From IMG/VR virus record IMGVR_UViG_3300042507_004361, positions 1 to 34,806 of that record: a stretch of DNA of 34,806 bases, one strand, 5' to 3'. Shown here piece by piece: positions 720 through 34,806 of the stretch (the stretch's first letter is position 1; every line of letters starts with the position of its first letter). Position numbers and translations under genes: made by a program. Origin of the DNA: a virus. The notes under the pieces are model-generated. The model was not told where the DNA came from and ran no database searches. It was given only the letters and a program-made list of their open reading frames with translations.

Positions 720-1253
720 CTAATCAACCTTTCGCCTCACCATGACTTGCCGACTTTCATCCCACTGCATAACAAAAGCAGATTGATCAGAGTTTTGAGA
801 ATTGTTTTGTAATGGCTTAGGCCGCGCGGCGGTCTGGTATTGTTCTATTGGTAGATCTTCTATTGGTAGATCTTTTATTGGTAGCGGATCAATCTGATCC
901 CATTCACCGGGATCAATCTGATCCCTATCGCGGATCAATTTGATCCCATTCCCGATCAATTTGATCCCATTTATTGGGATCGTTTTGATCCCATTGGTAG
1001 TCAAAACCCGGCCCCGGCCCCGGTCGGTCTGCTTCAGGAACCCGAGCTTGATCAATTTTTGGATGTATCGTTTTGTACTCGGCTCGGAGAGTCGCAGCTC
1101 TTTAGCTATGTGGGGGATACTGGCAAAGCAGGGTTTTTTGTTTTTTTCAAACCTTGCCACATATTGATAGATCAAAGCCTCAAGGTGGTTTAATCCCAGG
1201 TCTACGAGCGCAAAGTCTACTATGCCAAGCCGGTGTTTTTTGGTATTGTGCAT
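720..1253 (-). CDS. Winged-helix replication-initiator-like protein
   Basis: A 177-residue protein using the ATG at 1253, preceded by AAAGGAAC. Longer readings to 1349 would run through a terminator hairpin and a likely promoter, so they are rejected. Residues about 18-85 look like a winged helix: an IYQYVARF helix, SIPHIAKELRLSEPSTKRYIQKL as the recognition region, then LGFLKQTDRGRGR as the wing. This resembles the DNA-binding N-termini of phage replication initiators (helix-turn-helix_36 type). Residues about 87-138 are repetitive (NGIKLI, DQIDP, LPIKD/LPIED) because the DNA there is an iteron array. The arrangement recalls phage lambda O, whose origin lies inside its own gene. A transcriptional regulator is the main alternative. 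It is the only leftward gene in the early region. Confidence 0.65.
   Translation of the reverse strand: MHNTKKHRLGIVDFALVDLGLNHLEALIYQYVARFEKNKKPCFASIPHIAKELRLSEPSTKRYIQKLIKLGFLKQTDRGRGRVLTTNGIKTIPINGIKLIGNGIKLIRDRDQIDPGEWDQIDPLPIKDLPIEDLPIEQYQTAARPKPLQNNSQNSDQSAFVMQWDESRQVMVRRKVD
844..888. repeat. Three 15-bp direct repeats
   Basis: TCTATTGGTAGATCT occurs at 844-858 and 859-873, and a diverged third copy (TTTATTGGTAGCGGA) at 874-888. They encode the LPI(K/E)D repeats of the initiator-like protein and run directly into the iteron array. They may be part of the replication origin. Confidence 0.75.
886..992. repeat. Five palindromic iterons, candidate replication origin
   Basis: Five copies of a 16-bp unit close to GGATCAATYTGATCCC start at 886, 910, 932, 953 and 977 (spacing 24, 22, 21 and 24 bp, about two helical turns). 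Each unit is an imperfect palindrome with GATC at both ends. The array lies inside the coding sequence of the winged-helix protein. Regular spacing on one helical face inside an initiator gene is the layout of iteron-type phage origins. Ten GATC sites in about 105 bp could also make it responsive to Dam methylation. Origin function is inferred. Confidence 0.7.
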
Positions 1254-1268
1254 GCTGTTCCTTTTGTT

Positions 1269-1307
1269 AAACCACCCTTTACTTTGACCGGTAGGGGTGG
1301 TTTTTTT
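1269..1307 (+). terminator. Rightward intrinsic terminator in the rep leader
   Basis: AAACCACCC (1269-1277) pairs with GGGTGGTTT (1295-1303), and seven T residues run from 1301 to 1307. On the plus strand this is a canonical rho-independent terminator that would isolate the operon starting near 1450 from upstream transcription. On the minus strand the same stem forms in the untranslated leader of the initiator gene, just ahead of its ribosome-binding site. Confidence 0.75.
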
Positions 1308-2234: not shown

Positions 2235-2399
2235 ATGCAACAGATTAAAAACCTATTATTCACCCCGACTGGGCTCGCTGTCACCGTGTTGCACGTTGCT
2301 TTTTTTGTGGGCGTGATCACCTGCATTGTTGGCGTTAGAGTTTACGTGCTAGGCGATGACCCTGCTATGGCTGTTCGCTCAACCATGGGGAAGCGGTGA
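2235..2399 (+). CDS. Small inner-membrane protein
   Basis: A 54-residue protein starting at ATG 2235, 2 bp after the lipoprotein stop and preceded by GGAG. A single hydrophobic span covers about residues 13-38 (LAVTVLHVAFFVGVITCIVGV), followed by a short tail. Its end overlaps the GTG start of the transglycosylase gene by 4 bp, so the two are translationally coupled. A holin or inner-membrane partner role is plausible by position only. Confidence 0.6.
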   Translation: MQQIKNLLFTPTGLAVTVLHVAFFVGVITCIVGVRVYVLGDDPAMAVRSTMGKR

Positions 2400-2887
2400 A
2401 CCAGGACGATCAAAAGGGCTGCGGCTGGTTATGCGCGGCCCTTGTCGTAGCTGCGTTCTACTGCTCTTTGCCCGAGACCCTTGTCTATCATGGGGGCCGG
2501 TTGTTTCGGCTCCCTGTGACAGCTTCCAGAGGGCTTCTTGAGGCTGAGGTTGAGCGAGCCGCTGACGCATACGGGCTATCCCGCAAGGTGATGAAAGCTC
2601 TTGTCCGTGTTGAGAGTGCCTATAACCCGGAGGCAGTTTCTCCGGTCGGTGCTCGCGGCATAGCTCAAATCATGCCGTTCAACGCTCGGCGCTGTGGGCT
2701 ACCTGACGCCGATCACCTCTGGGACGCAACCTATAATCTACGCTGTGGGGCTAAAATCCTACGCGAGGAATTAGACCTGCATGGCGACCTAAAGCGTGCT
2801 CTTACGGTTTACAACTGCGGCAGAGTAAAATGTGCCGAGGGTCAAAGATACGCGCAAAAAGTGATTGCTCTCAGTACTGTATACTGA
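2396..2887 (+). CDS. Membrane-anchored SLT lytic transglycosylase
   Basis: A 163-residue protein with a GTG start overlapping the previous stop. Residues about 10-25 form a signal anchor. Residues about 52-160 are a lysozyme-like SLT domain: catalytic Glu73 in RVESAYNP, GARGIAQIMP as the substrate-groove motif, then ALTVYNCG. These enzymes cleave the MurNAc-GlcNAc bond of peptidoglycan to form 1,6-anhydro ends. With the secreted protein, lipoprotein and small membrane protein upstream it forms an envelope cassette on the early strand. It may serve lysis or local wall opening; the late strand has a separate set of lysis-like genes. An operator-covered promoter starts inside its 3' end. Confidence 0.85.
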   Translation: MNQDDQKGCGWLCAALVVAAFYCSLPETLVYHGGRLFRLPVTASRGLLEAEVERAADAYGLSRKVMKALVRVESAYNPEAVSPVGARGIAQIMPFNARRCGLPDADHLWDATYNLRCGAKILREELDLHGDLKRALTVYNCGRVKCAEGQRYAQKVIALSTVY

Positions 2888-3169: not shown

Positions 3170-3401
3170 GGTCACGATAGAGGATTTTGACGGGCATTCT
3201 GGGTATCTAGTCGTAGACGATGAACAGACAAATTATCACGACAAAATGCACTTTTGCCTTCCCAGAGAAGACGATATTTGGGACGGAGTTGGATGGTACG
3301 AGTATTACCCACCTAGTGACCAATATCTAAAGCGGATATTTGGCGAAAACGCTGAAGACAAGTTGATTGAACTAATTAAAAAGACAGGACAAGATGAGTA
3401 A
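3153..3401 (+). CDS. Hypothetical acidic protein
   Basis: An 82-residue acidic, aromatic protein of unknown function. It overlaps both the preceding gene (17 bp) and the Bet/RecT gene (8 bp), which implies coupled translation and a role in the same early process. No domain was recognised. Confidence 0.65.
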   Translation: MSNNFKVTIEDFDGHSGYLVVDDEQTNYHDKMHFCLPREDDIWDGVGWYEYYPPSDQYLKRIFGENAEDKLIELIKKTGQDE

Positions 3402-4230
3402 AGAACTAATAACAACCAACAACTTAGAAATGCTTAGCACGCTACGCAATACAGTAGCGCCAGGGCTTACCGATGCAGAATTTATGCTATTTGCAGAAAT
3501 GTGTCGGGCAACTGGACTAAACCCAGCCACAAAGGAGATTTGGGCAATTAAGGCCGGTGGTCGCTTGCAGCTTATGACCGGCATTAATGGGTTCCTCAAG
3601 ATTGCTAATAGTCATCCAGCTTATGACGGAATGGAGGTGGATTTTGAGTGGGATGGGAAAAGCCTGGTATCTGCGACAGTAAAAGTCTATCGCAAGGACC
3701 GACGTTTCCCCTCTGTAGCAACGGCATATATGGCTGAATACAAGAAGGAAACTCCTATATGGAGGACGATGCCTAGTGTGATGCTGGCGAAGTGCGCGAA
3801 GTCACTAGCCATACGCGAGGCATTCATAAACGAGCTTGGTGGGCTCTATACAGCCGAGGAAATGCCCCAAGAGTATGGCGCGGCACGAGTTGACACCAAC
3901 ACAGGCGAAGTCATCACGGCCAAGGCATACAAGGCTGAGAAAAAGGCAGTAGAGGCGCAAGCAAAGGCCGATTTTCATGCCGACCAACTGCCAGACTGGG
4001 ACGCGGAAGTAGTTCAAGCAGAGGCGAAGCCAGAGCCCGTACAGAGCAGAGCACAGCCTACGTTCTACGACGTGTCTAAGCTGGATGAGAAAGGCCGCGT
4101 AGCCGCTGAAAAGTATCTTTCAGACTGTGAAGCCAAAGAAATGACTGCGGGAATATGGCGAGCACCCATCAGACTGCAAAAACTAACTCAGTGCATTACA
4201 GAGGATCGGAGCGATGCTGGTAACATATAA
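3394..4230 (+). CDS. bet: Bet/RecT-type single-strand annealing protein
   Basis: A 278-residue protein. The N-terminal 160 residues carry the Bet/RecT pattern: LTDAEFMLFAEMCRATGLNP followed by KEIWAIK, GGRLQLMTGINGFLKIA, then a beta region (MEVDFEW, ATVKVYRKD) and MLAKCAKSLAIREAF before GGLYTAEEM. Such proteins bind and anneal complementary single strands during phage recombination. The C-terminal third (about 170-278) is charged and less conserved. No RecE or lambda-exonuclease partner is visible, but a PDDEXK protein lies at 7570. The gene overlaps the one before it and sits in an operon with two small PC4-like paralogues. Confidence 0.9.
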   Translation: MSKELITTNNLEMLSTLRNTVAPGLTDAEFMLFAEMCRATGLNPATKEIWAIKAGGRLQLMTGINGFLKIANSHPAYDGMEVDFEWDGKSLVSATVKVYRKDRRFPSVATAYMAEYKKETPIWRTMPSVMLAKCAKSLAIREAFINELGGLYTAEEMPQEYGAARVDTNTGEVITAKAYKAEKKAVEAQAKADFHADQLPDWDAEVVQAEAKPEPVQSRAQPTFYDVSKLDEKGRVAAEKYLSDCEAKEMTAGIWRAPIRLQKLTQCITEDRSDAGNI

Positions 4231-4274: not shown

Positions 4275-4451
4275 ATGAAAACAAAACGCAGAGACGATAC
4301 ACCAAGGCCGGGGTTTCGCCGATGGACGGTGATCGCCGACGTGGAATTGGTGAACTATTTGAAGCAATACGCCAAGACAAACAAAGTGTATTTAGCGGAT
4401 GTGGTAGATGAGCTACTCAAAGACTGGAAAAAGCGACATGGAAAAGTATAA
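4275..4451 (+). CDS. Small basic protein, possible ribbon-helix-helix
   Basis: A 58-residue protein beginning at ATG 4275 with GGGG upstream. After a basic N-terminus (MKTKRRDDTPRPGFRRW) comes a strand and two helices (VELVNYLKQYAKTNKVYLADVVDELLKDW), which fits a ribbon-helix-helix DNA-binding fold. It overlaps the next gene by 14 bp. A competing frame (4214-4411) covers part of it but has no recognisable fold, so this frame is preferred. Confidence 0.6.
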   Translation: MKTKRRDDTPRPGFRRWTVIADVELVNYLKQYAKTNKVYLADVVDELLKDWKKRHGKV

Positions 4452-27215: not shown

Positions 27216-29830
27216 TCTTCAGTATCCTCAATCTCAATGCCTACGGGATTACCAGCTTCATCGCTAATTATCTTACCACGACGCTTCTTAGGCTTGCTTG
27301 GCTTTTCTTTTTCAATAACCATAGGCTTATCAGTTGTTACCATGATAGCGCCTTGTGGCTGTCGTTGAAGCGTTTCCATGCTTAGACGAATCCGCTCAAT
27401 AGACTGCTCGGATGCCAAACGTCGTTCCTCCATGAGCTTTTCAGCTTCGGATAGTTTAATGCGCATCTGCTCCAAATCCAGTTTTTGAATTTCAAGGATA
27501 TGCTGCATCTGGCTGCTTTCTTGCTTAATAAGTGCTTTGTCGGCTTCAGTTTGAGCGCCGGTCTGCACTTTTAGCATATCAACTTCAACGGCTGATTGTT
27601 TAACTTGCACTTCTTGCTGTTGAATAGCAATTTGCTGCATAGCCATATATTCGGAGGACTGCTGCTTTTGAATTGCAAGTTGAGCCTCCAACTGGTCGCG
27701 TTGAGCTTTGAGTTGTTGGTTTTGCACTTCAATTTGATTTTTAACCTGTCGGTCTTGTGCTTCCATTTGAGCAGTTTGAAGCCGAGCTTGTGCCTCAATC
27801 TGAGCAATCTGTAAGCGTCCCTGAACTTCGAGCATCGTGGGGTCTGGTGGAGGAGGTTGTTTAGCAGCCTCTTCCTTGGCTCGTGCGATTTCGCCAATTT
27901 GCTTGAGGGCTTTTGTAAAAATGCCATCTAGCTCCTTGCCGCCTTTGAACCGCCGAATCATGTTTTGGAAAAGGCTAATGCTAAACTCTGCAAGTGGTGG
28001 GTATTGATCAACAAGACCTCGCATTTGGTCAAAAAACGCACCAGCGGTTTGTATAAGTGCTGTGCCTTCTTGTTGTTGTTGCTGTTGATCAATAGCAACC
28101 ATTGAATCGGAAGCGATTTGTATGCGGTAGCAGCGCTTTTTGCTATCGCGCAGAATCTCAATAATTTCTGCCTCAACTCTTTCGATTTCAGCTTCAGGAT
28201 TGCCAGGCATTTGTGCTTCCATGCCTTCTGGCATTTCTGGCATACCCTCTGGCTCCTCGACCGGCTCACCACCGAACGGCATTTCTGGCTGTGGTGCTTC
28301 CATGCCCATTGGCTGTGGCATTGGTGCTGGCGGTTGTGATGGGAGTGTTTCTGCAATAAGCCTGTCGGCGTCTGCTACATCAAGAATTGTCTCTTCGTCG
28401 AACTGCTCGGCGATGATTGTACCCAGGTGCATAATTGCATCCGAGACAAACTTGGTGAATTGATTCTGTCGAACAATTAATCCCATTGACGACCATTGGT
28501 TTTCCAACCTATTGGCCGTAGCTGACTTGTACTGCTCTGATGTGCCTCGAAGTAGGTCAGATACCTTTAAGGTTTCATAAAGCTGCTGTAGCGCATTCTG
28601 GCGGTTCTGCTGAAGGATATTGAGTACGTTTGCAAATTGCTCAACCGGAGCAAACTCAATAGACCCTTGTAGTCCACCTCGGCCACGGTTAGACGGCCAG
28701 TTGTCGACCGGCAAGCCTTTCAAGTCATCCTCAAACAACTGTTGGAGCGTAAGCCCCATAGCTGAGTCAAAAACGAAGTTAGCTCGAACTGCCTGTGTCA
28801 TGGCATGGATTCGAGTAGTTAGTCGCTCAACCTCAAGGATTTGATCCTTAACGTGTGTGTAGTCTGAAACTGGAATTACGGAGTCTGGGTCAGTAGATTG
28901 ACGAATTACGCTGCATGGATAAAACCGCTCAAACTTAATTGGCGGTTCCGACTCCTCAATGATAATTTTTTCGTAGTTAGCTTGAAGCCAATAGACCTTG
29001 TTTGTTGCTTCGCACCAGATTTCCCAAACCTCCGCCTTACCTTCGAGTTTTTCGTTTTTCTGGGTTACATCGCGGCGAGATAGCTCAGGAAAACTGTCGT
29101 AGTGCAGCTTGTCTGCTATTTCCAATCCGAATCGTTCTTCCACCTGGTAACGGTCAAGAAACGCTCGCTTGGCTTGCCATTCAATTTCGCTTTCGTTGCG
29201 AGCATCCGAACAGCGATAGTCGTTATACTGAACAACTTCAAGTACGGCTTTTTCGTCGACCTTTTGTTCAACCTCAACCGATACTAGCAGAATGTTGCCA
29301 CCGGCTTCCTTTGCATTAGTAATGTCGCCGTCAAACGGCTGGCCGTCGGCGGTAAACATTGAGCCTGACGGGTCACGGATAATAGCTATCTCTTGGAACA
29401 CCTTTTCGAACTTAGGCACATACCGCGCCCATAGTACGGCTTGACCTGTTAAGAGAAACTGAAGTGCTGCGTTGTAGCCTACTTTGTCAAAATCAAAGTG
29501 AGTGTCCATCGAGTACTGAGTGTTTCGCTCAATGACGACACTGCCTAATTCGTAGGGGATTCCACCAGCTCGCTTGCGCAGGTTTACTTCTGCTTTCGGT
29601 GTTGAACTATAAAACGCTGGTAGAAGTGTATTGACGCAGTACCACCATACGTTCAAACGGCGTTGTGCATCTTTCAAACTCTCAATTTGTTTTAGTGCAT
29701 TGTAAACGCGAATGGATTCTTCGGCTGCACGAACAAACTTTTCGTGTCGTTTTTCGGCTTCAAGGATTTGTGTTTTCCACCAGCGAGGCGAGTACTTTTT
29801 AACGGAATTAGCTGGCAATTTTATTTTCAT
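27212..29830 (-). CDS. Portal protein (P22-like) with long coiled-coil C-terminus
   Basis: An 872-residue protein. Residues about 1-490 are the P22-type portal core, with an N-terminal helix bundle (WWKTQILEAEKRHEKFVRAAEES), VWWYCVNTLLPAFYSSTPKAEV and the clip/stem region near YTHVKDQILEVERLTTRIHAM. Residues 498-545 are a Met/Pro/Glu-rich linker. A second domain follows, with a six-Gln tract at 582-587. A Gln-rich coiled coil (about 665-820) ends in a basic tail. The long helical C-terminus fits a portal barrel extending into the capsid. The dodecameric ring is the DNA entry channel and binds TerL, whose gene overlaps by 4 bp. Confidence 0.9.
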   Translation of the reverse strand: MKIKLPANSVKKYSPRWWKTQILEAEKRHEKFVRAAEESIRVYNALKQIESLKDAQRRLNVWWYCVNTLLPAFYSSTPKAEVNLRKRAGGIPYELGSVVIERNTQYSMDTHFDFDKVGYNAALQFLLTGQAVLWARYVPKFEKVFQEIAIIRDPSGSMFTADGQPFDGDITNAKEAGGNILLVSVEVEQKVDEKAVLEVVQYNDYRCSDARNESEIEWQAKRAFLDRYQVEERFGLEIADKLHYDSFPELSRRDVTQKNEKLEGKAEVWEIWCEATNKVYWLQANYEKIIIEESEPPIKFERFYPCSVIRQSTDPDSVIPVSDYTHVKDQILEVERLTTRIHAMTQAVRANFVFDSAMGLTLQQLFEDDLKGLPVDNWPSNRGRGGLQGSIEFAPVEQFANVLNILQQNRQNALQQLYETLKVSDLLRGTSEQYKSATANRLENQWSSMGLIVRQNQFTKFVSDAIMHLGTIIAEQFDEETILDVADADRLIAETLPSQPPAPMPQPMGMEAPQPEMPFGGEPVEEPEGMPEMPEGMEAQMPGNPEAEIERVEAEIIEILRDSKKRCYRIQIASDSMVAIDQQQQQQEGTALIQTAGAFFDQMRGLVDQYPPLAEFSISLFQNMIRRFKGGKELDGIFTKALKQIGEIARAKEEAAKQPPPPDPTMLEVQGRLQIAQIEAQARLQTAQMEAQDRQVKNQIEVQNQQLKAQRDQLEAQLAIQKQQSSEYMAMQQIAIQQQEVQVKQSAVEVDMLKVQTGAQTEADKALIKQESSQMQHILEIQKLDLEQMRIKLSEAEKLMEERRLASEQSIERIRLSMETLQRQPQGAIMVTTDKPMVIEKEKPSKPKKRRGKIISDEAGNPVGIEIEDTEE

Positions 29831-32268
29831 ATCTGGGTACGCGCCTGTCGTGCTCTCATTTTAGCAATATAGCTTTGAAGTTTAACTAACCCCTTACCAA
29901 CTACATCTTGCGGTTGTTCCCATTTGGAATCAATCAACCGAGCTTTGCAGAGGTAGCGTAAAGCGTCTACGGCATGGTCGTTGCCGGTAGTGTCTAAGTC
30001 CTCTGGTGAGCGTTTGTCTATCGTCATGGATGGTAAAGTTTCCAATAGGTATGGGCAACTAGCAAAGATGTACAGTAACGGCGGGTTGGACACTAGCCGT
30101 TGTCGGATCTGAGCCCAGCCTGATATGCGGTCATTATCGGCTGCACGAAACGCAGGGTGTTTGTATTTGGAGAATACGGCAGTAAATTGGTCGTTAATGC
30201 TTGGTCCACCTTCATGACTGAAAATGGATGGGTCAGCTACTGCTATTGCATTTTCTCCCACGGAAACTGAGGCAATTCGGTTAGCTTGTTCGACGTTATC
30301 AACTCCTTTTCCCCACATTTCCCGATAGATAACAATAGCTCCTTTTGGATACGGTACCTCGTTACCTCGGTCATCACGTCCAGAACTAACAGCGCCCCAG
30401 ACGGCAGCAAAAGGACTCCGATAACCCCAATCATACCCCAAATAACGGGGCCAATGCTTTGGTATGTTGAAAGGAGCAACAATATGTTTAGAACTAAACT
30501 CTGGAAAATAACTGCCTTCATGTATTTCAAAGTCTCCTTCAAGCCATGCTCGCACCAGTTCTGGTGAACCTACCATGTGCAATCGGTTGATGTATTCTGG
30601 ATCTCTGGCAAGTAAGATTTGGTTGTCAGTTACGCGGCTAGGTATGTAAATGTAGTCAAATCCGGCTCCATTAGGTAAATCCTTCCGCAAAACCTTCATG
30701 CCTTTTGGGGCCGGTTTTATGAACAGTTCTTTGAGCCAGCTATGCCCTATACCACCAGGGTTGAAGGTAAGGATGATTTGGCCGCCTCCCTTGCCTCGTA
30801 GCGCTCCAAATAGCTTCCAGATACAGCTTGGGTCATGGTAGTTACCAGCCTCCTCTATGGCGCAATCTGAGTTCTTGTTGATGAGGCCGCAATCTGATAT
30901 GTAGTGATTAGCTTCTTCAACAGTTAAATCGGTAACTAATTGCTTACCAACGTATGTCATTACCATCTTTCCAAAAACAACATCCTCAGCGAGATAAAAC
31001 GCCTTGCCGCTATAAGGATGCACCCACCACTCTAAGTGCTCAGGGCTATGTTTTTGAATGGTGCCCGACTCATCCCCGTTCAATGTATGGGACAATTCAG
31101 CAACACCGTCTTGTAATGGAAGTTTACCTTGGCCGTTTTCTACAGCCTGGGGAGAATGTTCATCACATAAACCACGACAAAACTGACAATCGCATTGAGA
31201 ATTTGCAATTGTTTGCTTCGTGGTCGGAACATTTGAAGGAGCATCACAAAGCGTGGAGAGCGAACCCAGAACTGGTTGAAAAAGTGCGTCAAGCTGCTCA
31301 AAACCCTGCTGTATCTTTTGCTTCATTAGGCATGAGTCCGACGACTGTTCGCAAGATTTGCCAGGAGCATGACATTCAGTGGAAGCGGCGTGGGAACAAC
31401 GTGCGAGCTTACGAGCTAACCGAACAGTCGGTGCGTGAAGCGTTACAGGGACGGACAACGAATCAAGCTGCTGCGTATTTAGGGTGTCATCCAATGACTC
31501 TGTACAATAAGTTTTCTTATCTTCTTTCCAAGAGAACCAAGCCTGGTGCTTTAGACCCCTATATGCGGGAAATATACGATCTACGTTACAAGCAGATAGT
31601 GCCCATTGCAGAGATTGCTGGTCGATATGGCGTTTCTGAGACGTGTGTTGCAAGGAGTTTGCAGAGATGGAAGAAACTCCGTGTGCCGTCAAAACAGGGT
31701 GCCAAATGGGATTTCTCTGCGCCCCCACCACGTTGCCGTCCTGGTCCAAAACCTGGCTCTCGACGCAAGGGGCTAAGTAAGGCGTAGTAAGATTTTTGAC
31801 TTTTCGTGGCCCTAATAAGGTTGCCACCATATCGCCTATTTGAATAGCTTCTATCGGCTTAAACGAGCCGTCTGCCATTCTGATACGAGTACCGACAGCT
31901 ACGCATAAATTCTGGCCCTGGTATTTTTCAGCATCAGAATCATTAGCTAGCGGTCTGAAGCGAAGTCTGCCCCCGTTTACAAAAGTGAACTGTTTTTTCT
32001 GATCCTGCCAGTGCGCTTTTAGGGGTAGGTAAATCTGCTTGGCTCGCTCAATCAGGTCGTCTGCTTGAGGTAATTCTTTACGGAAAAATATGGCATTAAA
32101 GTGAGGTCCAAGTTGCTCTTGTTTAACGGCAAACTTGCCTAACACCCCATCAGTTTTGCCACCACCACGAGCACCACCATAGCCGATTAAGGTTATTGGA
32201 CACGCTACTAAAGCCTCCTGAGGGCCGATCTGAGGGCACCATACAACATTATAGTCAATGTTTTCCAT
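29827..32268 (-). CDS. terL: Terminase large subunit interrupted by an intein
   Basis: An 813-residue precursor. The exteins (1-121 and 467-813) join to a normal 468-residue TerL. Walker A is GYGGARGGGKTD (29-40). Walker B is CAIEEAG (469-475), right after the splice point. The coupling region is LTFNPGG. The nuclease acidic residues are Asp613 in GYDWGY, Asp679 in ADPS and Asp764/Asp768 in NDHAVDAL. TerL pumps DNA into the procapsid through the portal and cuts concatemers. Residues 122-466 are an intein (C122 to N466, followed by Ser467). The start codon has no strong Shine-Dalgarno and lies 3 bp after an HNH gene, so it probably relies on coupling. Most of the intein is read antisense to another gene. 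Confidence 0.93.
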   Translation of the reverse strand: MENIDYNVVWCPQIGPQEALVACPITLIGYGGARGGGKTDGVLGKFAVKQEQLGPHFNAIFFRKELPQADDLIERAKQIYLPLKAHWQDQKKQFTFVNGGRLRFRPLANDSDAEKYQGQNLCVAVGTRIRMADGSFKPIEAIQIGDMVATLLGPRKVKNLTTPYLAPCVESQVLDQDGNVVGAQRNPIWHPVLTAHGVSSISANSLQHTSQKRHIDQQSLQWALSACNVDRIFPAYRGLKHQAWFSWKEDKKTYCTESLDDTLNTQQLDSLSVPVTLHAPTVRLARKLARCSHAASTECHAPGKSCEQSSDSCLMKQKIQQGFEQLDALFQPVLGSLSTLCDAPSNVPTTKQTIANSQCDCQFCRGLCDEHSPQAVENGQGKLPLQDGVAELSHTLNGDESGTIQKHSPEHLEWWVHPYSGKAFYLAEDVVFGKMVMTYVGKQLVTDLTVEEANHYISDCGLINKNSDCAIEEAGNYHDPSCIWKLFGALRGKGGGQIILTFNPGGIGHSWLKELFIKPAPKGMKVLRKDLPNGAGFDYIYIPSRVTDNQILLARDPEYINRLHMVGSPELVRAWLEGDFEIHEGSYFPEFSSKHIVAPFNIPKHWPRYLGYDWGYRSPFAAVWGAVSSGRDDRGNEVPYPKGAIVIYREMWGKGVDNVEQANRIASVSVGENAIAVADPSIFSHEGGPSINDQFTAVFSKYKHPAFRAADNDRISGWAQIRQRLVSNPPLLYIFASCPYLLETLPSMTIDKRSPEDLDTTGNDHAVDALRYLCKARLIDSKWEQPQDVVGKGLVKLQSYIAKMRARQARTQI
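30871..31905 (-). other. Intein in TerL (345 residues, 122-466 of the precursor)
   Basis: The N-terminal splicing block starts at Cys122 (CVAVGTRIRMADGSFKPIEAIQIGD). Block B contains NPIWHPVLTAHG with His190, although the usual Thr three residues earlier is Pro. Blocks F/G are LVTDLTVEEANHYISDCGLINKN, ending in Asn466 before Ser467. The penultimate residue is Lys instead of His, a variation I recall from other inteins. Removing it restores YQGQNL-SDCAIEEAG, a continuous TerL Walker B region. Only about 120 residues at the two ends look like Hint; the remaining 220 or so have no recognisable domain in this frame and lie opposite the HNH gene. Splicing is inferred from motifs. Confidence 0.85.
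30954..31787 (+). CDS. HNH homing-endonuclease-like gene, antisense inside the intein
   Basis: A 277-residue protein on the strand opposite TerL, wholly inside the intein. Residues about 31-99 are an HNH_3-type domain: GYVFEWCPTHPRS, HRLVMEVYLGRFLQPGENVHHINHDKTDNRIENLQL (His51, His70-His71, Asn79, Asn83), then SEHLKEHH. Residues about 118-240 contain three helix-turn-helix-like units (SFASLGMSPTTVRKIC; TTNQAAAYLGCHPMTLYNKF; PIAEIAGRYGVSETCVARSL), as in modular phage HNH endonucleases. The last 25 residues are Pro/Arg/Lys-rich and lie opposite intein block B. There is no visible Shine-Dalgarno before ATG 30954. It probably cuts DNA of intein-free or related phages and so spreads the element. 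Confidence 0.9.
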   Translation: MSLPSFQKQHPQRDKTPCRYKDAPTTLSAQGYVFEWCPTHPRSMYGTIQQHRLVMEVYLGRFLQPGENVHHINHDKTDNRIENLQLFASWSEHLKEHHKAWRANPELVEKVRQAAQNPAVSFASLGMSPTTVRKICQEHDIQWKRRGNNVRAYELTEQSVREALQGRTTNQAAAYLGCHPMTLYNKFSYLLSKRTKPGALDPYMREIYDLRYKQIVPIAEIAGRYGVSETCVARSLQRWKKLRVPSKQGAKWDFSAPPPRCRPGPKPGSRRKGLSKA

Positions 32269-32271
32269 TGG

Positions 32272-32811
32272 TTATGTCACTATTTTCCACTTTTTGCCAG
32301 TAACTATATTGTGAATATGCTTGCTATCTACGCCGTATTTTGCACCCAAACTGCGGGTGGTATGTCCACCTTCGGCGTACAATTTTCTAATTTCCAAAAC
32401 CTGCTCTGGTTTTAATTTAGCATTTTTATGTTTCGACCCGAACCAAGTACGTCCTTTTAATGCCATATCACGCATATTGTCTTGATGTGTTCCAAGAAAC
32501 AAATGTTCAGGATTTACACACTGCGGATTATCGCACTTATGAAGAACGTGTTTGTCACCAATAGGTCCTTTGCAAAACTCATACATAAGCCGATGCACTT
32601 TATACTGTTTGCGATTGTCTCGATTGCCTTTTTCACGCACGTTAATGGTGCCGTACCCGTTTTTACGGCCTAAACCGCCTGTCCAGTAATGGCAATCACT
32701 AAATGGAATTTGAATAATGTAACGATGGAGTCGATTAAGAATGTGCTGCTGTGTGTAACCCAATATCATGTGGCCCACTATGACAGGCCCTGCAATGGTT
32801 GCCAGGCCCAT
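32272..32811 (-). CDS. HNH endonuclease with C-terminal helix-turn-helix
   Basis: A 179-residue protein with GAGCAGG before its ATG. The HNH_3-like core is CHYWTGGLGRKNGYGTI, then VHRLMYEFCKGPI, then VLHKCDNPQCVNPEHLFLGTHQDN (His91, Cys93, Cys98, Asn100). Residues about 132-176 (LKPEQVLEIRKLYAEGGHTTRSLGAKYGVDSKHIHNIV) are a helix-turn-helix typical of free-standing phage homing endonucleases. The stop lies 3 bp before the TerL ATG, so it splits a zinc-ribbon gene from terL. It is of a different subtype from the antisense HNH inside the intein. A packaging-associated HNH function is also possible. Confidence 0.88.
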   Translation of the reverse strand: MGLATIAGPVIVGHMILGYTQQHILNRLHRYIIQIPFSDCHYWTGGLGRKNGYGTINVREKGNRDNRKQYKVHRLMYEFCKGPIGDKHVLHKCDNPQCVNPEHLFLGTHQDNMRDMALKGRTWFGSKHKNAKLKPEQVLEIRKLYAEGGHTTRSLGAKYGVDSKHIHNIVTGKKWKIVT

Positions 32812-33890: not shown

Positions 33891-34160
33891 CTACGCGATA
33901 TCATTGAGTAACTGCATAAACTCCTCGCTTGTCATCCCGCTTAATTGGTACAGCACTACAATCTCGCAAGGGTGGTAGGTGCGCTTGGTGCGCTCTCTGT
34001 ACCGTAACGCTTCATATTTGAGCTTGAGGACCTTCGCCAGCTGCATTCTATTTAATCCCAACCGCTTGCGTATCGCTTGGTACAGGTTTGCTCTCGCTTG
34101 AGGTATAGCGTGATAGTGACCTACTTTGATTCTACCGTTGAGCTTCGGTAATTGGTTCAT
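33891..34160 (-). CDS. XRE-type helix-turn-helix regulator
   Basis: An 89-residue protein (ATG 34160; a GTG at 34172 is an alternative). Residues about 25-70 form a lambda-repressor-like helix-turn-helix: LYQAIRKRLGLNRMQLAKVLKLKYEALRYRERTKR, followed by EIVVLYQLSGMTSEEFMQLL. It is small, with no cleavable C-terminal domain, so it is Cro- or C-like rather than a full CI. It is divergent from the early operon and adjacent to the palindromic sites at 34189-34284, so it is the leading candidate for the protein that binds them. Confidence 0.75.
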   Translation of the reverse strand: MNQLPKLNGRIKVGHYHAIPQARANLYQAIRKRLGLNRMQLAKVLKLKYEALRYRERTKRTYHPCEIVVLYQLSGMTSEEFMQLLNDIA

Positions 34161-34188
34161 ATTAGCCAACACAATCCCAAGCTACGCT

Positions 34189-34305
34189 ACTGTTGCCAGT
34201 AATAGCAACAAGAATTGCTAACTTGGTGATTACTGGTAATGCTTAAAATATCTCTGTGTTTATTTCGCTTCTACTGTTTACAGTACTGCATCTTGTATGT
34301 ATGTT
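34189..34305 (+). promoter_or_regulatory. Early control region: operators and candidate promoter
   Basis: ACTGTTTACAGT (34273-34284, 11/12 to ACTGTATACAGT) overlaps the -35 TTTACA (34277-34282); after 17 bp comes TATGTT (34300-34305). A weaker site ACTGTTGCCAGT lies at 34189-34200. Inverted repeats GTTGC...GCAAC (34192-34209) and CCAGTAAT...ATTACTGG add symmetry. The region separates the divergent XRE gene from the rightward early genes. Confidence 0.55.
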
Positions 34306-34355
34306 CGAACTGCGGGGTAAAAATCCGCATAACTTAACTAGCGAGGGTACAGTAA

Positions 34356-34448
34356 ATGACTAGCAACGAAACGAGACTGATGACAGCGGTAGTGTGGTTT
34401 GCAGTGTTGGTTCTATTAGTGTCAATGCTGGCCCCGGTAATCAAATAG
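34356..34448 (+). CDS. Very small membrane peptide
   Basis: A 30-residue peptide. The ATG at 34356 follows GAGGG. A single hydrophobic span (AVVWFAVLVLLVSMLAPVI) with a polar N-terminus makes it a typical small phage membrane peptide. It is the first gene after the control-region promoter. Function is unknown. Confidence 0.5.
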   Translation: MTSNETRLMTAVVWFAVLVLLVSMLAPVIK

Positions 34449-34456
34449 AAAAAACC

Positions 34457-34669
34457 ATGGAACAGACAGAGCAAGTAAAGGTAGCTATTGAGGTTGTAAG
34501 CGAACTGGCAATGGTGATTAGGGATGCTAAGCGAATACCCTCCGGTCATCTATATGCTCATCTTATGGGCGTTTTGAGTCTCGATAAATATGAGATGATC
34601 ATTGGCTTAGTAAAAAAGACTGGCTTGGTCATCCAGGACGGAGACGAGCTGGTATGGGTAGGGGATTGA
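34457..34669 (+). CDS. Small conserved phage protein
   Basis: A 70-residue protein starting at ATG 34457. The pattern VKVAIEVVSELAMVIRDAKRIPSGHLYAHLMGVLSLDKYEMIIGLVKKTGLVIQDGDELVWVG is familiar from small uncharacterised phage proteins and looks like a compact winged-helix-like fold. The ribosome-binding site is weak. The stop lies at the -35 of the next promoter element. Confidence 0.65.
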   Translation: MEQTEQVKVAIEVVSELAMVIRDAKRIPSGHLYAHLMGVLSLDKYEMIIGLVKKTGLVIQDGDELVWVGD

Positions 34670-34694
34670 TCGGCTAGCTATAACTGTATACAGT
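34666..34694 (+). promoter_or_regulatory. Candidate promoter with perfect ACTGTATACAGT operator
   Basis: TTGATC (34666-34671), 17 bp, then TACAGT (34689-34694). The perfect 12-bp palindrome ACTGTATACAGT (34683-34694) covers the -10. It would drive the gene at 36 across the circular junction. Confidence 0.55.
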
Positions 34695-34728
34695 AACGAT
34701 TACAGGGTACTTCTCGGAGTGCCCAATA

Positions 34729-34806
34729 ATCGCAATGGTGCGGTTAACTAAGGAGGAACGACAATGAAAGATAACAACAGAAACGCCCTTCGCGCAGTAC
34801 TAAAAC
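34729..34806. repeat. Right copy of the terminal redundancy
   Basis: Repeats bases 1-78 with one substitution (A34796 for T68). It shows that the two ends of the window join. Confidence 0.9.
34764..34806 (+). CDS. Partial second copy of the gene at 36
   Basis: The first 14 codons of the gene at 36, cut off by the end of the window. It is the redundant end of a circular genome, not a separate gene. Confidence 0.85.
   Translation, partial: MKDNNRNALRAVLK

Follow-up and report, generated by a model that had tools for sequence, protein, structure and literature searches.

Which protein would read the short palindromes that mark the early promoters of this uncultivated aquatic phage, and to what effect? 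Close to them lies the gene of an XRE-family HTH protein (33891–34172, minus strand), which heads the leftward late operon and which the first-pass annotation had put forward as their repressor. We have analysed the whole stretch of 34,806 nucleotides (the window) together with related viral records, and propose that the palindromes are probably operators of a phage-encoded early repressor, for which the likeliest candidate is a 58-aa ribbon-helix-helix (RHH) protein that would shut off the early genes, its own included.

Results

Early region of the phage

The window carries a 78-bp repeat at its ends (1–78 and 34729–34806, one mismatch), the junction of a circular-type contig. The contig is therefore circular or permuted, and the palindromes belong to one early region, which spans the junction and has its limits at 34188 and 2913. 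Genes in and beside this region encode a 70-aa protein (34457–34669, plus strand), an HTH_36 replication-initiator-like protein (rep; 720–1289, minus strand), an SLT-type lytic transglycosylase (2396–2887, plus strand), a RecT/Bet-like single-strand annealing protein (3394–4230, plus strand) and the RHH protein (4275–4451, plus strand). Many of the small early proteins matched no family; the 70-aa protein, considered as a winged-helix repressor, was dropped for the same reason. Within the coding sequence of rep there are GGGATCAAnnTGATCCC-type repeats (880–1010), other rep genes have internal repeats of their own (TGTTCAAAATG, ATTTTGGCCG), and this arrangement resembles the lambda O-type origin within a gene.

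The absence of a visible integrase, remarked on in the first-pass annotation, was borne out: neither tyrosine integrase (PF00589) nor serine recombinase (PF00239) was found in any of 12 records, namely the phage and 11 relatives, in a search with positive controls. At the late end, an insert of some 345 aa in terL (29827–32268) is Hint/intein-like, with weak Hom_end_hint and Vint matches, and is missing from the 99% identical terL of relative L061. Between terS and terL lies a free-standing HNH-like gene (32272–32811) with homologues in G016, G024 and Pseudanabaena phage Pam5.

The palindrome and its frequency

All eight sites of the 12-bp palindrome listed in the first-pass annotation are present, with mismatches to the 12-mer as follows: 34683 (0), 34273 (1), 34189 (3), 1377 (2), 1403 (1), 2876 (2), 2889 (3) and 2901 (2). 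The true length of the motif is nonetheless 14 bp, not 12, and this matters to the genome-wide scan that had been suggested as a check: the 12-mer with up to three mismatches gave 19 matches against a shuffle mean of 13.6, and 7 of 100 shuffles reached 19, which is not clearly above chance, whereas the 14-bp form TACTGTNTACAGTA with up to two mismatches stood far above its null. It occurs at seven places (1376, 1402, 2888, 2900, 34188, 34272 and 34682), with 13 strand-wise matches versus one for the reversed pattern. The 300 palindromes of the same letters averaged 0.13 matches, 0.01 of them intergenic, a null that could be up to 3-fold higher, as it was run with one centre variant and the observed count with three. 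All seven places are in intergenic or gene-end DNA (3.9% of the window), as had been claimed for the early sites, and shuffled palindromes gave 0 or 1 intergenic match. In an unrestricted de novo dyad search TACTGTNTACAGTA was also among the top dyads of the window; run over whole genomes, that search yielded mainly coding-sequence noise and was abandoned.

Sites on the early promoters

Operator 1, TACTGTTTACAGTA (34272–34285), sits on the first rightward early promoter and provides with its own TTTACA (34277–34282) the putative −35 box, followed after 17 bp by the −10 box TATGTT (34300–34305); its counterpart aligns upstream of the XRE homologues in relatives. A hairpin at 34310–34330 (plus strand) would form the 5′ end of the first early transcript, and in the first leader of many relatives it is replaced by a GGGAATAATCCC-type hairpin; in three of the four early leaders, indeed, a hairpin is predicted near the start. 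On the other side of operator 1, the weaker operator TACTGTTGCCAGTA (34188–34201) falls between the −35 and −10 boxes of a putative XRE/late promoter that points leftward (TTGCTA-18-TAGCTT on the reverse strand, 34208–34179), and its ACAGT half is retained at the same position in several relatives.

Operator AACTGTATACAGTA (34682–34695) covers a −10 box, TACAGT (34689–34694), with TTGATC (34666–34671) as the −35 box, and the circular type of the contig places it upstream of gene 36–347, across the junction. The rightward promoter before gene 1450–1707, divergent from rep, is covered twice: TACTTTACACAGTA (1376–1389) contains its −35 box TTTACA (1379–1384) and TACTGTATACAGCA (1402–1415) its −10 box TACTGT (1402–1407), a pairing found in the same place in five relatives. 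Furthermore, three adjacent operators (2875, 2888 and 2900; 2875–2913) with centres 13 and 12 bp apart span the stop codon of the transglycosylase gene, whose 3′ end they overlap, and lie on the predicted promoter of the recT-RHH operon, TTGCTC(2865)-17-TACTGT(2888), with a counterpart in most relatives of the same operator class. Neighbouring operators are often 11–13 bp apart, or 23–24 bp, about one or two helical turns.

Read by eye, all four rightward clusters agree with the earlier claim of −35/−10 pairs at a 17-bp spacing (34277/34300, 34666/34689, 1379/1402 and 2865/2888), and this geometry recurs in relatives. In a test confined to the early orientation the 17-bp signal was mild (9 of 27 relatives; further peaks stood at 10 and 15 bp); the same test with both strands pooled was uninformative. 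The early promoters are thus likely rather than proven, given this mild signal among the 27 relatives and a moderate agreement with the sigma-70 consensus.

Conservation in related viruses

Relatives of the XRE gene were found in IMG/VR contigs, with none in INPHARED and none among GTDB genomes, and a prophage/host search returned only two 48%-identical TerL proteins, in metagenome-assembled gammaproteobacterial bins. Most XRE homologues have an operator about 100–200 bp upstream, even at low XRE identity. When a matrix built solely from these XRE-upstream sites was used to scan the full records, 13 of 17 further sites outside the XRE region of five relatives fell in two syntenic spots, upstream of rep and at the SLT end/start of the recT operon, which amount to 1.6% of the sequence (p ~1e-20). 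A pair 25–36 bp apart lies upstream of rep in G003, G012, G013, G015 and G019, and four of these have strong sites also at the SLT end before recT, which matches the window. The supposition of the first-pass annotation that a single operator family serves four or more early promoters is thereby upheld, with sites overlapping the −35 box, the spacer or the −10 box and recurring in the same places in relatives. As read from these genomes, the family marks a conserved predicted regulon on the early promoters of many uncultivated phages, a large group with no detectable integrase.

The DNA upstream of XRE holds other words in some relatives. In L022, L050 and L108, CTATGTNTACATAG palindromes stand in place of ACTGTNTACAGT. 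L016, L006, L110 and L066 share a conserved element, GATATCAG(G/C)TAGTTAG, about 20 bp upstream of TTGC-N17/18-TACYCT; this may be a late promoter accompanied by a binding site for an activator or for XRE. L040/L079 and L055 have GACTATAGTC / GACTATACTC words, which we take to resemble the C-box of controller proteins and which are possibly the XRE protein's own site in that clade.

A small RHH protein encoded after recT

The RHH gene, which is absent from the first-pass annotation and surfaced in a search for early genes shared among relatives, directly follows recT, and it likewise has recT as its neighbour in the 15 relatives that yielded it. It lies in the operon headed by the promoter-like pair on which the 2875–2913 sites are placed. 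Profile comparison matched the protein to SvtR (2kel, E=8.6e-7), ORF56 (E=6.9e-5), ParG (4.6e-4) and also CopG, and PHROGs gave a weak Arc-like match. The monomer model (pLDDT 87) has an N-terminal extended stretch and two helices, so that profile and model agree on a strand-helix-helix fold; Foldseek paired it with StnY, CopG and Arc at probabilities of about 0.9–1.0 and E-values of just 0.04–0.3, weak because the protein is short. In 16 RHH homologues R16 and T18, of an R-x-T-like N-terminal strand, are nearly invariant, as expected of polar residues that face the DNA. These strand residues are common to different operator classes, and the changes of specificity are not explained residue by residue.

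Which protein follows the operator class

An operator class was assigned to each of 80 recT loci from what sites lie at its SLT end and ahead of rep, and we asked, for 28 dereplicated loci with RHH, RecT and XRE all present, whether the nearest neighbour of each protein had the same operator class. With phylogeny uncorrected, it did so in 27/28 cases for RecT, 26/28 for RHH and 21/28 for XRE. RecT thus predicts the class as well as RHH does; the two are neighbours, and linkage and shared ancestry are inseparable here. We read the result as evidence for a recT-linked binder, and RHH alone has a recognised DNA-binding fold there. A GTGTGCACAC-like site is present at the SLT end in all five loci of the clade with RYTLYI-type RHH proteins, and an SLT-end site of the GTGTGCACAC kind in none of the 12 of the KRHTIFI clade. 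The recognition helices of XRE vary widely among phages with the same operator, and XRE similarity reaches 0.85 across differing operator classes. G018 and G020 have common promoter sequences, operators and RHH with different XRE proteins, and L009 and L025 have a common operator region, again with different XRE proteins. No protein was found to be confined to operator-carrying genomes.

Discussion

Being placed on nearly all early promoters, and in the same places in related viruses, TACTGTNTACAGTA is almost certainly, as far as comparison of genomes can tell, the landing site of a repressor. The position of the sites on the −35 box, the spacer, the −10 box or the start suggests how it would act: a bound dimer would cover these elements and block RNA polymerase. 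The RHH protein would be made from the recT operon and, from the row of sites on the promoter of that operon, we infer that it would first turn down its own synthesis and, later in infection, silence the remaining early promoters, in the manner of a Cro- or Arc-like early shut-off. The weaker site in the leftward XRE/late promoter might be occupied only at high repressor levels. A spacing of 11–13 bp fits RHH dimers in a row, and cooperative RHH arrays have been described (PMC5569661). Among the roles that the first-pass annotation had considered, timing control during lytic growth is favoured over immunity because the 12 records lack tyrosine integrase and serine recombinase; a plasmid-like state may still be kept in mind.

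The neighbouring XRE protein could itself be the repressor, binding the 14-bp palindromes as a lambda/434-type HTH dimer, repressing its own gene and the early genes and so forming a divergent early/late switch. A dyad of this size is typical of HTH operators; XRE homologues match HTH_3, HTH_31 and Xre-like-HTH, and the XRE model has an HTH fold like those of C.Esp1396I and the 434/P22 repressors, nearest to controller proteins. In most relatives an XRE homologue precedes terL by a few kb at most, and the operator ahead of it in most of them would also suit XRE autoregulation. Against this, the same operator occurs with very different XRE helices and similar XRE proteins with different operators, the operator class follows the recT-linked region better than XRE, and sites 11–13 bp apart would crowd HTH dimers side by side, where RHH dimers suit better; we hence consider the XRE protein, the original candidate, unlikely to be the binder. 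Another early protein linked to recT is a quite improbable substitute for RHH: the class goes just as well with the recT region as a whole and many small early proteins are without a family match, but the early region yielded no further recT-linked protein whose DNA-binding fold could be recognised. Rep, too, is unlikely, its expected targets being the phage-specific repeats inside the rep genes.

That a host transcription factor, for example one of GntR type whose box is TGTATACA-like, occupies the sites and couples early transcription to the state of the host is improbable as well. Palindromes of the TGTATACA type do appear in a paper on a GntR-family host regulator (PMC7797058), but here almost all early promoters carry sites, the recT operon promoter among them, and in G016 the variants, ATTGTNTACAAT-like at all three places, change together at the three promoters, as expected of a phage-encoded partner. 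The simplest reading, in which the palindromes are mere promoter words, conserved −35 and −10 boxes with no separate regulator, is hardly credible; the sites do contain such hexamers, but their symmetry is kept outside the hexamers, some fall within spacers or beyond the start, and both halves change together in one clade.

With RHH as the preferred repressor, a broader and more tentative proposal, which we would sooner doubt than assert, is that this large, undescribed group of integrase-less phages, known from environmental metagenomes, uses recT-linked RHH proteins for early shut-off, of the specificities CTGTNNACAG, ATTGTNNACAAT and GTGTGCACAC, with recT-RHH and its operators exchangeable as a set and independent of XRE. 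If so, the phages would form immunity-like groups that repress one another's early genes in co-infection. The analysis offers in any case a regulatory map (operators, promoters and a candidate repressor) for a phage group whose XRE protein has no relatives in the phage and bacterial genome collections searched, and it illustrates that operator variants among metagenomic relatives can pinpoint a likely repressor where the nearest HTH gene misleads.

Among known systems, the LexA SOS box (CTGT-N8-ACAG) has the same CTGT...ACAG half-sites, but the spacer here is of 2 bases, not 8, by which identity with it is ruled out. The recognition of GTATAC by CcdA-like proteins is a parallel to which we give no weight. 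The lambda/434 Cro-CI switch is alike in its divergent promoters, its palindromic operators of 14–17 bp over −35 and −10 boxes, and its groups of sites of graded strength; here, an HTH protein is present, but operator identity does not follow XRE identity, the integrase of a lysogeny module was not found, and the tandem spacing is too short. P22 Arc is the phage prototype of RHH repressors. With Arc and CopG the present system has in common a small RHH protein, short symmetric sites close together and a proposed repression of promoters, and it differs from them in its linkage to recT, the lack of a detectable integrase, another operator sequence, the several early promoters and weak sequence similarity. 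Viral RHH self-repressors are already established, and our search of the literature for this exact operator motif returned no paper. Such viral regulators, SvtR and AvtR, are repressors of their own genes and of a small number of other promoters, and both spread along the DNA (PMC5569661). SvtR of the archaeal virus SIRV1, the best sequence-profile match of the phage RHH protein, differs in its archaeal promoters, its longer and degenerate inverted repeat and its target of best affinity, a structural gene, and is alike as a virus-encoded RHH regulator whose own promoter is under its repression and which has a small number of other binding sites in the viral genome (PMC5569661), the kind of role proposed for the phage protein.
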